From Bacteroidota bacterium (GTDB lineage: Bacteria > Bacteroidota > Bacteroidia > Bacteroidales > B18-G4), in assembly GCA_013202965.1 (NCBI GenBank), contig JABMQZ010000181.1, positions 1-40,466 on the forward strand: 40,466 nt of DNA, in the 5' to 3' direction. This document shows positions 10,358 through 30,642 of the stretch, piece by piece. The position numbers and the translations under genes are program-made. Within the stretch, counting starts at the first letter, position 1; every line of letters starts with the position of its first letter. Under the pieces are notes generated by a model that made no database searches, was not told the origin of the DNA, and saw only the letters and a program-made list of their open reading frames with translations.

Positions 10358-10432
10358 GGGGTGTTAGCTCAGTTGGTTTAGAGCGCATGCTTGACAGGCA
10401 TGAGGTCACTGGTTCGATTCCAGTACATCCCA
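10358..10432 (+). tRNA. tRNA-Val (anticodon GAC)
   Basis: All four arms fold. The acceptor stem pairs GGGGTGT with ACATCCC (one G-T). The D-arm is GCTC...GAGC, the anticodon stem is CATGC/GCATG around loop TTGACAG, and the T-arm is ACTGG/CCAGT around TTCGATT. Anticodon GAC reads GUC and GUU valine codons. The 3' CCA is not encoded; the discriminator A is followed by CAAAA. Confidence 0.96.
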
Positions 10433-10433
10433 C

Positions 10434-10463: not shown

Positions 10464-10593
10464 TTTTTTCTTCCCCTTTTTCAGCTGTTTATTGAGAAAT
10501 CTTCAGTTTTTTTTAAAAAAAATCACATTTTATATATCTCATAACTAAGCAGTTATAAGATACTTTAACAAAAAATGATATTTTTTTTGTTTT

Positions 10594-10629
10594 ACAGGGT
10601 TACCTTTTTGACTTAATCGGTATTAATAA
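10594..10629 (+). promoter_or_regulatory. Candidate alternative-sigma promoter of the GG-peptide/CHAT unit
   Basis: ACAGGGTTACCTTTT (10594-10608), 6 nt, then AATCGGTATTAATAA (10615-10629). The first half is identical over 15 nt to a sequence just upstream of the sigma gene, and the second half matches there in 13 of 15 positions with 5 nt between the halves. This is the pattern of -35 and -10 boxes recognised by one sigma factor, here probably the one encoded at 14555-15127. Transcription would start roughly 70-80 nt before the peptide gene. An operator for a shared regulator is the alternative. Confidence 0.6.
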
Positions 10630-10708
10630 GTAATTGAAAGGAGAATTTCCTTTATAGTTTAATTCAAAAGTCTTAATTCAATTTTTACTTAATAAAAAGC
10701 CCTATCGG

Positions 10709-10828
10709 ATGAAAATTTTAACAGAAGACCTCAGGAACATTACAGTACTCAGTGAAATTGAAATGAACAAAATCTTTGGTGGTGACAATACAGGCACCAC
10801 GACTGAAGATGACGAGGCTTGGTTATAA
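10709..10828 (+). CDS. 39-residue double-glycine leader-type peptide
   Basis: ATG to TAA encodes a 39-residue acidic peptide. Residues 1-25 (MKILTEDLRNITVLSEIEMN then KIFGG) look like the GG-type leader common in Bacteroidota, with a hydrophobic L/I/M pattern and a Gly-Gly at 24-25. The remaining 14 residues, DNTGTTTEDDEAWL, are rich in Thr, Asp and Glu and end in Trp-Leu. There is no Sec signal and no cysteine in the tail. Known GG leaders are cut after Gly-Gly by C39-type transporters or similar proteases, or direct modifying enzymes; neither is encoded nearby. The next gene downstream, 120 nt away on the same strand, is a CHAT protease, so the peptide may be its signal or substrate, which is inference. 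A sigma-type promoter lies about 80 nt upstream. Confidence 0.62.
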   Translation: MKILTEDLRNITVLSEIEMNKIFGGDNTGTTTEDDEAWL

Positions 10829-10903
10829 ATTCCTTTCAAAATAATTTCTGAAGATTATCCTGCTATCGGACAAAGCTTTAAGTTGTTCGAAGCAAAGTTT
10901 TCG

Positions 10904-10925
10904 TAATAAAAGCATTATTTTATTA
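10904..10925 (+). other. AT-only hairpin between the peptide and CHAT genes
   Basis: TAATAAAA and TTTTATTA form an 8-bp perfect inverted repeat around GCATTA, 24 nt before the CHAT start codon. It could weakly attenuate read-through from the peptide gene or be a chance feature of AT-rich DNA. Confidence 0.25.
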
Positions 10926-10948
10926 ACTTTCGTTCCTAAATTAGCAGA

Positions 10949-13714
10949 ATGGAACGGAGGTTATTTTTTATTTCCTTAATAATTTTTCTTTTTTGTTTTT
11001 CTTTCCATGCTCATGCTTTTCAGGAAGATTCCCTTGGAATTATTCAATTAAACAAAAATGGCCGGCAATTAGCAATATCCGGCGATTTTGACGGTGCTGA
11101 AAATGCATACCTCGCGATTCTCCGGATTGATCCTAATTCATTTATGGCCAGAAACAATCTCGGGAATGTATATAAATACCTTGGGCGCTATAATGATGCA
11201 TTAAGAGTGTTTTTTGAAGCTACGGAGATTTTAATAGAAGAATGCGATCAGAACTGTTCGGATCTGCCATCAATGTATATGAACATTGGAATAATTTATA
11301 AGCAAAAGCAGGATTATGAGCTCGCACTTCAGTATCTGAATTATGCTGAGGGCTTATTCAATGCATCTTCGTCGATAAGCAATGAGTCAGCTAAGATCTA
11401 CAATAATCTGGGGAATATTTATTTTGGACTGAAGGATTGGCGCAAGGCACTTGTATCATATCAGAAAGGCATCCAGGTGAAAAAAATGCTGAATTCCGGA
11501 GGCTTGGATATTTCATACGCCAATTGTGCCAGTGCTTATGAGAACCTTGGCTTGTTGGATTCAGCAAAATTGTATTATAATTATTCTATCCAGGATAAAA
11601 TCAATGTATATGGTGATACGAGTTATAAATTGATAAGTGTATATAATAACTATAGTTGGCTTTTGCAACGTATGGGTGAAGATGAAAAAGCTTTTCAATA
11701 TCTGAGTGAAGCGCTGGGTTTTGCACAGGGATACTATGCTGAAAAACATCCAATAACATCAGAATGCCATAAATCCCTTGGATACTGGTATCTTGCTGAG
11801 GGTGATGTCGAAGAGGCCATTAAGTATTTCCAAAATGCTATAACAGCTGTGGTATTTGATTATTCCAATAATAATTATTTTGATAATCCCGGCCCGGGCA
11901 ATGAAATCATCTCTGAGCCTGTTTTGCTGGAAGCATTCAGGGGAAAAGCTCTTGCATTGGCAGAACAGTACAGGCAGACGCACGATCCCCAATTTTTGAT
12001 GGCCTCTCTTGAAACCCTGGAACTTGCAAATATGCTTGCAGAGAAAATGAGGTCTGCCTATTTAAGCCAGGAAAGTAAGTTATTAATTACAGAGAATTCC
12101 AGGATTGGCTTCGATAGGGCTATTAATACTGCTTTTGAACTGTATAAGATCACAGGTGAACTCGAATATGCGAATAAGGCCTTCATTTTTGCTGAGAAAA
12201 GCAAATCTTCGGTTTTGCTGGCATCTTTGCAGGAAGTTGAAAACAAAAAAAACCTCGGGATCCCTGTGGATTTGCAAAACTTTGAGCAGGATCTCAGGGC
12301 TGAAACAGATGTTTATAAAAAAAGGCTTTACGAGGAAAGACAAAGGGAAATAGTCGATTCTGCCAGGATAGGAATCTGGCAGGGAAAAATACTCTCACTG
12401 AGCCAGCAGCTGGATAGTCTTGCCAAGGTAATAAATGATGAATTTCCTGAGTATGCCTCTAAATATGATAATGAAGTTATAGACCTTGAGGGTGTAATGA
12501 GTAAGCTGAGGGCAGATCAGGTTCTTTTGGAATACACTATTACTGATACATCTCTATTTATCTTTGTGATCAAAAATGACAATTATTATATTAGCAGACA
12601 CACAATAGATTCAGGATTCTTTTCTATGATTGACATTCTTAGCAGGTTTCTGAGGAATAATGATTTTGCAAATAACACCATATCTGATTTCAAGGCCTAT
12701 AAGACAGCAGCATATTCACTGTTTACATATTTGTTTCTCCCGGTTCTTGACCAATTGGCTGACAAAGCCCTGCTTATTGTTCCGGATGGCCAGCTGGGCT
12801 ACATTCCCTTCGAAGTCTTATTGACTGAACTGGATGATAATGAGTCTATGGACTACAGGTCATTGCCATACCTGATCTATAAATACAGAACCAATTATTC
12901 ATATTCTGCCACGCTCTTATTCAGTGAAAAAAATAGCGAGGAAGCCAGATATGACCGCTTGCTTGCTTTTGCACCGACTTATGAAAATCTTTCGCAGATA
13001 AACAGTGAGAAGTTTCCTGCATGCCGTGATTACGCCACATATCTTGTTCCTCTGAAATTTACTTCGCAGGAGATAGAGAACATCAGTGCACTTGTTGAAT
13101 GCGATAAGTATGAATTTTATGAAGCAACCGAACAGGCTTTCAGAGATCAGGCACCCTATTATGATATTCTGCACCTTGCGATGCATACATTGATCAATGA
13201 TGATAATCCAATGTATTCACAGCTTGTTTTTACCCTTAATAATGATACTATTGAAGAGAATGACGGCCTTCTTAATACATATGAGATATTCAATATGACG
13301 CTCAGGGCAAGAATGACAGTCCTAAGTGCATGTAATACGGGTTATGGAAAACTCAGGAAAGGGGAGGGGATTATGAGTTTAGCCAGGGGATTTATTTTTG
13401 CCGGTATACCTACAATAATTATGACATTGTGGGCTGCTGAAGATCAGTCCGGATCTGTTTTGATGAGTAGTTTTTATGAAAATCTTGTTGACGGCATGGA
13501 AATAGATGAGGCATTAAGGAAAGCTAAGCTGCAATACCTTAAGAATGCGGATCAGCTCAGAGCGCATCCATATTTATGGTCGGGTTATGTAAGCATAGGC
13601 GCCACCAGACCCTTGTTACAACCGCAGAACTCAAGAATTCTTTTTCTTATCACAGGAATTCTGGGATTTGTGGTTTTAATAAGCCTGCTGTTTGCATTTT
13701 TTAGAAAAAAATAA
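10949..13714 (+). CDS. TPR-CHAT caspase-like protease, secreted and membrane-anchored
   Basis: This 921-residue protein has a signal peptide (residues 1-24, ending HAHAFQ) and then tetratricopeptide repeats over about residues 30-300, with motifs such as ARNNLGNVYKYLGRY and YNNLGNIYFGLKDWRKAL. A helical, coiled-coil-like linker follows. The CHAT peptidase domain covers about 560-885, and a C-terminal transmembrane helix at ~895-917 is followed by RKK. The expected dyad is present: His746 in HLAMHT and Cys795 in LSACNTG, with the GEGIMSLARGFIFAGIPTIIMTLW segment after it. The topology predicts that repeats and protease face the periplasm. CHAT proteins cut specific partners after sensing through their repeats; the substrate here is unknown. 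It probably shares a transcript with the upstream GG peptide and converges on the anti-sigma gene. Confidence 0.9.
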   Translation: MERRLFFISLIIFLFCFSFHAHAFQEDSLGIIQLNKNGRQLAISGDFDGAENAYLAILRIDPNSFMARNNLGNVYKYLGRYNDALRVFFEATEILIEECDQNCSDLPSMYMNIGIIYKQKQDYELALQYLNYAEGLFNASSSISNESAKIYNNLGNIYFGLKDWRKALVSYQKGIQVKKMLNSGGLDISYANCASAYENLGLLDSAKLYYNYSIQDKINVYGDTSYKLISVYNNYSWLLQRMGEDEKAFQYLSEALGFAQGYYAEKHPITSECHKSLGYWYLAEGDVEEAIKYFQNAITAVVFDYSNNNYFDNPGPGNEIISEPVLLEAFRGKALALAEQYRQTHDPQFLMASLETLELANMLAEKMRSAYLSQESKLLITENSRIGFDRAINTAFELYKITGELEYANKAFIFAEKSKSSVLLASLQEVENKKNLGIPVDLQNFEQDLRAETDVYKKRLYEERQREIVDSARIGIWQGKILSLSQQLDSLAKVINDEFPEYASKYDNEVIDLEGVMSKLRADQVLLEYTITDTSLFIFVIKNDNYYISRHTIDSGFFSMIDILSRFLRNNDFANNTISDFKAYKTAAYSLFTYLFLPVLDQLADKALLIVPDGQLGYIPFEVLLTELDDNESMDYRSLPYLIYKYRTNYSYSATLLFSEKNSEEARYDRLLAFAPTYENLSQINSEKFPACRDYATYLVPLKFTSQEIENISALVECDKYEFYEATEQAFRDQAPYYDILHLAMHTLINDDNPMYSQLVFTLNNDTIEENDGLLNTYEIFNMTLRARMTVLSACNTGYGKLRKGEGIMSLARGFIFAGIPTIIMTLWAAEDQSGSVLMSSFYENLVDGMEIDEALRKAKLQYLKNADQLRAHPYLWSGYVSIGATRPLLQPQNSRILFLITGILGFVVLISLLFAFFRKK

Positions 13715-13719
13715 ACAAG

Positions 13720-13745
13720 AAAAAACACGCCGAAGCGTGTTTTTT
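13720..13745. terminator. Bidirectional terminator between the CHAT and anti-sigma genes
   Basis: An 11-bp perfect stem (AAAAAACACGC/GCGTGTTTTTT) with tetraloop CGAA has A-run and T-run flanks, so it works in both directions. It starts 5 nt after the CHAT stop codon. Confidence 0.9.
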
Positions 13746-13787
13746 CAAAAGTCTGTCTTAATTCAATAAAGCTTGATAGAAGAAATA

Positions 13788-14558
13788 TCAGTCTTGAATA
13801 CTTTTTAGTATTTCATGCGCCCTGTCTTTGTAAAAACTATTGCTAAGACTGATATTACGGAAAAGATTCAATGCATTATCATCCTCATTCAGTTTAAGGT
13901 GGCATAGTGCGGCGTACCATTCTGCGCGCTCTATGTACAGGTTTTGTTTATGATCCATAATAAACTGGAATGGGAGCAATGCATCTTGGTATTGCCCTAA
14001 TTCAATATTTGAGATTCCCGAATAAAACTGCACAGGAATATTTTCTTTATCTGCATCCAGAACCTGAGAGAATAGTTCAAGTGCTGCGGGATAATCCATA
14101 TTTTCATATTTCTGGAATGCCTGGATCAATGTGGCATTCTGGCTGTTTGCGCCCCTGATGAGCATGGCTGCATCAGGCTGATAATATATTTTGAACAGGC
14201 TGTCATTCGATATATTCGAATCCGGACGCAGGAAATACAGCGACAAACTGGTAAAGATAAGCAGTACTACAAATGATGCTGCAGCAATTCTGGATAGCTT
14301 ATGCCGAAGTATTGTACGTAACAGGCCTGGCTGTTTCTTGTTTTGGGTGAGGTCGTGGACCAAATCAAGTTTCTTTCTTAATTCGATAACCTCACTTTCC
14401 TGGATTGCTTCATCTATTTCTTTGTGAAGCTCAAACTCAGCATTAAGTTCTGGATCATTTTGAAGGTCCAGATCGAAGTCCTCCAGGTCTTTCGCACTTA
14501 ATTCTCCGCTAAGTTTTTCATCGATAAGTTCAAACAGATCTTTTTCTAATGTTTTCAT
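13788..14558 (-). CDS. Membrane anti-sigma-like protein with periplasmic TPRs
   Basis: This 256-residue protein has an acidic cytoplasmic N-terminal region of about 80 residues (KLSGELSAKDLEDFD... LNAEFELHKEIDE), like the N-part of Bacteroidota anti-sigma proteins that lack a zinc motif. A single transmembrane helix at ~91-110 (IAAASFVVLLIFTSLSLYFL) follows, then a C-terminal region of about 140 residues with TPR-like helices (YPAALELFSQVLDADKENIPVQFYSGISNIELGQY). Its start codon overlaps the sigma stop codon in TCAT on the plus strand (ATGA), so the two are translationally coupled. It most likely holds the sigma factor at the membrane and senses an envelope signal through its TPRs. The CHAT protein also has periplasmic TPRs, so direct contact or cleavage between the two is possible but unproven. 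Confidence 0.75.
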   Translation of the reverse strand: MKTLEKDLFELIDEKLSGELSAKDLEDFDLDLQNDPELNAEFELHKEIDEAIQESEVIELRKKLDLVHDLTQNKKQPGLLRTILRHKLSRIAAASFVVLLIFTSLSLYFLRPDSNISNDSLFKIYYQPDAAMLIRGANSQNATLIQAFQKYENMDYPAALELFSQVLDADKENIPVQFYSGISNIELGQYQDALLPFQFIMDHKQNLYIERAEWYAALCHLKLNEDDNALNLFRNISLSNSFYKDRAHEILKSIQD

Positions 14559-15127
14559 TGCTTTATTTTATTGAATTCAGGGTCATTTTTAATCCTTTTC
14601 ACCAGTATTTCTTTACATTGGAATTTGCGTTTTTTGGCATACTTTTCACTTCCGAAACCCATGACCTGTGAGATATCCTCTAATGATTGTTTGGCAAAAA
14701 ACAATCTTAGTACTTTCTGGCAATCCTCACTTAGCGTGAGGAAATGCTTTTGATAAAGGTTGAATCTCTCACTCTTTTGATCATAAAATGATCTTTCAAG
14801 AGGTTCTTCAGCGAGTACAAATTCGCTGCCAGTGATCAGCTTTACATCGCCGGTTCTGCGTTTCTCAAGCTCCTTCAGCCAAAGGTTTTTAATAATGGCA
14901 TAAACATAAGTCTTAAAAGAGCATGTGATTACAAAATCCTTCTCGTTCACCTTTCTGTAAATAACAATTACAGCTTCCTGAAACACATCCTTGGCGTCAT
15001 CATCAGTGCCACTGTTGTTATTTACGAAACCTTTAACCGAAGGATAAAACTTCTTATATATGTACTCCAATGTATCGGAGTCATGTAACCGTATACCCTC
15101 CAGTAACGATTCTTCGATGTAATGCAT
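14555..15127 (-). CDS. Sigma-70 family (ECF-like) RNA polymerase sigma factor
   Basis: From the ATG at 15127 the product is 190 residues (MHYIEESLLEGIRLHD...). Sigma region 2 is visible in DVFQEAVIVIYRKV and FKTYVYAIIKNLWLKELEKRR. Region 4 is visible in CQKVLRLFFAKQSLEDISQVMG followed by the recognition helix around SEKYAKKRKFQCKEIL. An in-frame TTG at 15178 lies within the promoter-like repeat and is rejected as a start. The gene is followed by a membrane anti-sigma gene with a 4-nt overlap. The same bipartite motif lies before this gene and before the GG-peptide/CHAT unit, suggesting autoregulation and a specific local target. The leader would be unusually short, a few nucleotides to about 15. 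Confidence 0.88.
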   Translation of the reverse strand: MHYIEESLLEGIRLHDSDTLEYIYKKFYPSVKGFVNNNSGTDDDAKDVFQEAVIVIYRKVNEKDFVITCSFKTYVYAIIKNLWLKELEKRRTGDVKLITGSEFVLAEEPLERSFYDQKSERFNLYQKHFLTLSEDCQKVLRLFFAKQSLEDISQVMGFGSEKYAKKRKFQCKEILVKRIKNDPEFNKIKQ

Positions 15128-15138
15128 CACATTTCCAA

Positions 15139-15173
15139 TTATTAATTCTGATTTTTTGAAAAGGTAACCCTGT
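15139..15173 (-). promoter_or_regulatory. Candidate autoregulatory promoter of the sigma gene
   Basis: On the minus strand ACAGGGTTACCTTTT (15173-15159), 5 nt, then AATCAGAATTAATAA (15153-15139). It matches the element at 10594-10629 in 28 of 30 motif positions. It ends about 11 nt before the sigma start codon, so the mRNA leader is very short. Confidence 0.6.
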
Positions 15174-15348
15174 TTCAATAAAAATTTTTAAACATTTTTT
15201 CTACAAATAATGCTTAATGAATGAAAATCAGTGTGATAGTTAATAAATTATTTTTACTTTTTTTTTATATATACGACAAAAATAGACTTTTGTTCCATTA
15301 ATCTACAAATGCCTTTAATATTTTATGAATAATCGGGCTCAAATTCCA

Positions 15349-30603: not shown

Positions 30604-30642
30604 TTGAGTGTTCCACCTACGCTAAAGCTTCGGCGGACAAGG
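30604..30642. repeat. Copy C (short) of the dispersed repeat
   Basis: TTGAGTGTTCC-N-CCT-N-CGCTAAA, then GCTTCGGCGGACAAGG, lies 10 nt before the trmD start codon on the other strand. The first 23 nt match the left end of the element at 28426. Confidence 0.45.

Follow-up and report, generated by a model that had tools for sequence, protein, structure and literature searches.

The locus described here raises the question of whether four neighbouring genes, encoding a sigma factor, a membrane protein that is its putative inhibitor, a short peptide and a TPR-CHAT protease, act as one signalling module, and what part the protease would play in it. The genes lie in the window (the whole stretch of 40,466 nucleotides that was analysed), which is contig C157 of a 3.32-Mb genome that is 93% complete. 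In a genome scan with seven sigmas, the named relatives nearest to it were metagenomic, uncultured Bacteroidales. A sequence-only reading had placed the genes in two convergent arms meeting at a bidirectional terminator, and all of these features are present where it had put them (Table 1), the terminator being a perfect 12-bp stem that has a T-run on each strand and whose folding z-scores are -4.8 and -7.0. A gene for tRNA-Val (gac), together with a terminator of its own (10358-10433, +), lies immediately 5' of the peptide promoter. An interpretation of the locus as a defence system was rejected, PADLOC having returned only weak TPR matches and no Cas genes having been found beside the module.

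Table 1. Positions in the window of the features of the sigma-CHAT locus.
Feature	Position	Strand	Remarks
Promoter of the peptide-CHAT arm	10594..10628	+	-35-like ACAGGGTTACCTTTT, -10-like CGGTATTAATA; relatives keep both position and sequence; nearly exclusive to the two arms
GG-leader peptide, 39 aa	10709..10828	+	Leader residues 1-25 ending GG, then core DNTGTTTEDDEAWL
TPR-CHAT protease, 921 aa, predicted periplasmic	10949..13714	+	Signal peptide ~1-23, TPR ~40-300, CHAT 590-885, C-terminal TM 897-915
His746 codon of CHAT, catalytic	13184..13186	+	Invariant across 24 aligned CHAT relatives
Cys795 codon of CHAT, catalytic	13331..13333	+	Invariant across 24 aligned CHAT relatives
Bidirectional intrinsic terminator	13719..13746	both strands	Common to both convergent arms
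Putative anti-sigma factor, 256 aa	13788..14558	-	Predicted cytoplasmic N-terminus, TM 91-109, periplasmic TPR domain
Arg135-Gly136 codons of anti-sigma	14151..14156	-	Juxtamembrane loop; candidate site-1 cleavage site
ECF-like sigma factor, 190 aa	14555..15127	-	Length from conserved ATG
Promoter of the sigma/anti-sigma arm (autoregulation)	15140..15173	-	Same element before the sigma ATG in most relatives

The sigma factor scores above the cut-offs of its families (TIGR02937, 54.8 versus 42.9 bits; PF04542, 35.4 versus 24 bits). Its ORF as listed reaches back as far as a TTG at 15178. As that codon lies inside the gene's own promoter and the ATG at 15127 is conserved in relatives, translation more likely begins at the latter. 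The next gene overlaps it by 4 nt and encodes a protein with a predicted cytoplasmic N-terminus, a single transmembrane (TM) helix and a periplasmic domain, which on sequence and modelling is a putative membrane anti-sigma factor, in agreement with the pairing first proposed. All structure predictions were of one chain each. The anti-sigma model (mean pLDDT 76.5) resembles TPR chaperones such as PcrH/SycD as well as peptide-bound TPR domains of known structure, a likeness that is generic to TPR folds.

The protease carries a CHAT domain well above the cut-off of its family (PF12770, 177.8 versus 24 bits), and its His-Cys dyad is intact. As the protein has both a signal peptide and a C-terminal TM helix with a basic tail, its protease domain is expected on the periplasmic side of the inner membrane, to which it would be anchored; nearly all sigma-linked CHAT proteins have a signal peptide or lipobox together with a C-terminal TM helix. 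The structure model (pLDDT 85.9, pTM 0.82) finds Csx29 of Craspase as its first fold match in the PDB (8eey_B, E 1.5e-14), DdvA second and then separase. When PDB sequences were searched with a profile of the CHAT domain only, full-length queries being swamped by TPR proteins, DdvA ranked first with a weak E-value of 0.017.

In the peptide, a hydrophobic-acidic leader that ends in GG precedes an acidic core of 14 aa. It does not reach the cut-offs of the GG-leader families (TIGR04149, 16.7 versus 25 bits; PF10439, 12.7 versus 27.1 bits), but dN/dS values of 0.04-0.15 among genus members show it to be a coding gene under purifying selection. The arm had first been read as a double-glycine peptide followed by a secreted, membrane-anchored TPR-CHAT protease, and that observation holds. 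The peptide is at the same position in four members of the genus and in G007 of the same family, with cores among relatives that end in EDDEAWL, EDEDAWM, EDEDVWM or EDDDIWL. At two further loci, L083 and L122, the gene of a related peptide (with a core that ends in EEDIIL or ESDIIL) precedes those of a C39-peptidase ABC exporter and of an HlyD protein, in an operon that has the same promoter and is divergent from CHAT. The only C39 exporter of the window genome, also with HlyD, is on contig C232, unlinked to the module, and presumably exports the window peptide. The module resembles the known C39 (PCAT) GG-leader peptides in its leader, in the exporter beside the peptide in relatives and in the one C39 exporter of the genome, but differs from them in its very short acidic core and in that the window peptide is co-transcribed with a protease and not with an exporter.

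The same motif opens both arms, as had been claimed. ACAGGGTTACCTTTT occurs exactly in each, at 10594 on the forward and at 15173 on the reverse strand, and a second block, CNGNATTAATA, is also common to them. A stricter form of the promoter pattern has four occurrences in the whole 3.32-Mb genome, namely both arms, C32 and C179, and its reversed-pattern control has none there; a looser pattern matches at C121 and C164 in addition, and a copy with two mismatches lies at 30637 of the window. Among eight members of family f1, 10 of the 13 motif sites are in the two arms of the sigma-CHAT locus, and neither the two sigma-less genomes of this family nor its reversed-pattern controls gave any site. 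It had been proposed that relatives in which the sigma pair and the CHAT unit occur independently, without the motif, would count against a single module; instead, the close sigma clade keeps both motif and CHAT linkage, and the sigma-less sister genomes lack the motif. Over loci with close sigmas (1.24 Mb, both strands), 56 of 60 composite sites are directly upstream of the sigma or the CHAT/partner operon and the reversed pattern has 8 matches, in counts for which the pattern was derived from the same loci and in which related loci are not independent. Site counting took the place of a shuffle test that compared the upstream regions of both arms locus by locus; this test has too little power at most loci, since AT-rich leaders match each other by chance.

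The -35 block is GGGTTACC or GTATTACC depending on lineage, and its type is identical between the two arms at 25 of 25 loci (9 GG/GG and 16 non-GG/non-GG; Fisher p 5e-7, uncorrected for shared descent). Variation in the two arms is thus coupled, as is expected if one sigma reads both, and with the site counts this suggests that both arms very probably do answer to the same sigma. In most relatives the promoter is ~36-41 nt 5' of the sigma ATG, and ~40 nt in the window, so that the sigma message would be almost without a leader. No such promoter was found at the diverged sigmas of the order (L074, L077-L081, L090, L091 and L097), which presumably read another one.

Counts of the wider regulon rest on pattern searches. 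The extra sites in family f1 include one in G002 that precedes a T9SS-sorted protein of 1375 aa, one in G001 (L158:1501) that precedes a LytTR-domain protein followed by a large, conserved membrane protein, and a further one that precedes a possible small RNA. A degenerate site on C164 of the window genome (L112 at 1501; L161 ~2447) stands before a membrane protein homologous to that of G001. Near-perfect motifs at G000:C121:6493 (L111:1501-1640) and G003:C293 (L147) are followed ~85 nt on by a strong terminator with no ORF in between, the stem of which varies on both sides between species (GGAGGACAC.. versus GGAGAGCGA..); this element (fold z-score -4.5) is a candidate sigma-driven small RNA and has no Rfam match above cut-off. 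The sites at C32, C179 and G002:C82 (L006:7830-7900; L007:215-300 reverse; L156 past 1501) precede long 5' leaders that have a conserved element, with CCCCCTT..AATTGAA and AAAGGAGGCAAKGGCAAA, in common, ahead of secreted-protein genes.

From the sigma and CHAT matches listed for 392 genomes of the phylum, at least 47 sigma-CHAT pairs within 12 kb were counted, in at least 36 genomes, against ~0.9 expected. Seventeen of the listed pairs are convergent, many with a gap of ~720 nt, which is the size of an anti-sigma gene. At the 20 loci inspected across the phylum there is a sigma, a TPR anti-sigma and a CHAT protein that is mostly membrane-anchored, and the partner slot is usually filled by a lipoprotein or outer-membrane-type protein. 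Within the order, the peptide-CHAT unit may be convergent with the sigma/anti-sigma pair as in the window (layout A), the pair may be convergent with CHAT and divergent from a peptide-exporter unit (layout B), or it may be divergent from a T9SS-sorted protein of ~410 aa that is followed by CHAT (layout C). Since the partner slot elsewhere holds a T9SS-sorted protein or a lipoprotein, the GG peptide is the exported partner of one lineage and not a universal component. On these sequence comparisons, the set of sigma, anti-sigma and CHAT is a real and old module that recurs far beyond the genus, across much of the Bacteroidota. The proposal of a four-family system thus holds in that one module is widely conserved and its layout recurs, often as in the window; it does not hold for the exact set, which is lineage-specific with the GG peptide as one of several partners, nor for every sigma/anti-sigma pair, as some have a C39 exporter and no CHAT (L079, L081, L123 and L124). 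Each family is also found alone in some genomes.

Several features of the wider loci were also observed. The sigma/anti-sigma pair is tandemly duplicated beside CHAT and a T9SS-sorted protein at L138, L139, L140 and L142. In layout C (L075, L125-L143), a MutS2-type Smr protein of ~810 aa comes after CHAT, and in many of these loci a small membrane protein with CAITSNP is next, neighbours that probably reflect conserved synteny. At L077 (G015), an anti-sigma-like gene lies beyond CHAT, away from the sigma, between a GG peptide and a histidine kinase. The lipoprotein partners of CHAT in one genome group (L227, L228, L232 and L233) have a conserved tail, (K/R)PRPP(C)(I/V)IIxx, and at L232 and L233 a second lipoprotein, adjoining the anti-sigma, has a similar one, (R/G)ED..TLxQ; such C-terminal tails may be a recognition element for CHAT or a TPR domain.

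The nearest described systems are Craspase and DdvA. In Craspase, of type III-E CRISPR, the TPR-CHAT protease Csx29 cleaves Csx30, the inhibitor of CASP-sigma (PMC10028731), and the module is similar in that a TPR-CHAT protease, for which Csx29 is the best fold match, is encoded with an ECF sigma and its putative inhibitor. Craspase is cytoplasmic and RNA-guided, however, whereas the CHAT protein of the module is predicted to be periplasmic and membrane-anchored and its anti-sigma is a membrane TPR protein; neither gRAMP/Cas7-11 nor a CRISPR array nor other Cas genes were found in the module or in the neighbouring genes that were mapped, be it in the window or in relatives. DdvA, of the DdvA/DdvS system of Myxococcus xanthus, is a transmembrane anti-sigma of an ECF sigma (PDB 8rot, 8rw5; PMC4374960), the chain of which is named CHAT domain-containing protein and is the second-best match; it is one fused protein, whereas the module has separate anti-sigma and CHAT genes and an exported partner. 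CHAT, subtilase or carboxypeptidase proteins are conserved in the context of ECF54 sigmas, for which proteolytic control has been proposed (PMC8999054), but these are described without an anti-sigma (PMC8999054), and by that description they are set apart from the module, which has an adjoining anti-sigma in nearly all sigma-CHAT loci. No description of a sigma-CHAT module in Bacteroidetes was found in the literature searched, which did not take in the 2021 ECF classification, and an earlier bioinformatic notice is possible.

Comparison between genomes shows the parts, their order, the sharing of the promoter, the coding status of the peptide and, as a prediction, the membrane topology; from these we infer the target of the protease, its activation by the partner and the sign of the feedback. 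The reading that we tentatively favour is of an envelope-signalling module in which CHAT would cut the anti-sigma and so free the sigma to drive both arms. Besides the operon that encodes it, the sigma would drive that of peptide and CHAT and a small number of genes for secreted proteins; the TPR-CHAT protein would become active, most likely on binding or loss of its exported partner, and would cut the anti-sigma between the membrane and the TPR domain, with Arg135-Gly136 as the candidate site. What is left of the anti-sigma would then be broken down in the manner of regulated intramembrane proteolysis, and the sigma, once released, would reinforce both arms. The proposed periplasmic site-1 cut of a single-pass anti-sigma is similar to that of RseA/DegS-type proteolysis, from which it differs in that the protease would be a CHAT protein (clan CD) whose gene is part of the module and answers to the same sigma.

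What makes such cleavage plausible is the topology, a conserved juxtamembrane Arg and the two precedents, Craspase and DdvA; CHAT and anti-sigma are both predicted to be tethered to the inner membrane with periplasmic domains, in keeping with an action of CHAT on the anti-sigma. An Arg with a small residue is present between the membrane and the TPR domain in 58 of 60 CHAT-linked anti-sigmas (~29 would be expected with any Arg), and Lys is depleted in this loop. Proteases of clan CD are often specific for Arg. The loop with Arg135-Gly136 is among the low-confidence parts of the anti-sigma model, and an Arg is present in 11 of 12 anti-sigmas without CHAT on the contig, several of those contigs being merely short, so that the residue may be structural.

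Nearly as likely as cleavage of the anti-sigma by CHAT is that CHAT and its exported partner are no more than outputs. Envelope stress or a ligand would then be sensed by the sigma/anti-sigma pair through the TPR domain, with the anti-sigma untouched by CHAT, and the protease and partner so induced would process surface proteins or kill or protect the cell. This is consistent with the position of CHAT and partner downstream of the sigma promoter, with the large T9SS-sorted proteins also in the regulon, with the varying identity of the partner and with the pairs that lack CHAT, some of which have a C39 exporter instead. CHAT is, however, kept beside the sigma/anti-sigma pair throughout the phylum more tightly than an output would need, and the TPR-CHAT protein of Craspase acts on a sigma inhibitor, whilst DdvA has CHAT within the anti-sigma itself. 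Considerably less probable is a function of the GG peptide as a small bacteriocin or as a modified peptide, which CHAT would mature or to which it would give immunity, the sigma pair regulating production only. The double-glycine leader and the C39 exporter and HlyD protein in the peptide operon at L083 and L122 agree with this, but an acidic core of just 14 residues, the lack of an adjacent modification enzyme, scores below the GG-leader family cut-offs and the pairing of CHAT with a non-peptide partner in most relatives do not. That the arms are unrelated neighbours with a motif in common by chance was rejected as very improbable, for although each family also occurs alone, the excess of sigma-CHAT pairs, the arm-matched -35 variants and the motif-free sigma-less genomes all speak against it.

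Returning to the reading in which CHAT releases the sigma from its anti-sigma, it is conceivable, if rather unlikely, that the acidic core is itself an exported signal, read in the periplasm by the TPR domains of CHAT or the anti-sigma and triggering anti-sigma cleavage and a self-reinforcing sigma response, with lipoproteins or T9SS-sorted proteins taking the same part elsewhere. If so, it would be a Gram-negative counterpart of TPR-peptide (RRNPP-type) signalling without re-import.

To our knowledge, CHAT proteases are widespread in bacteria and few have a known substrate. What recurs in much of the Bacteroidota is a unit of a membrane-tethered CHAT protein, a sigma, the putative membrane inhibitor of that sigma and a partner for export; its promoter can be read from the sequence, and one definite site is a candidate for cleavage. 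The recurrence of switch, brake and protease under matching promoters suggests a circuit for envelope signalling that is not yet described and in which the brake may be released by the protease. Taken with Craspase and DdvA, the unit suggests by analogy that control of ECF sigmas may be a general job of TPR-CHAT proteins.
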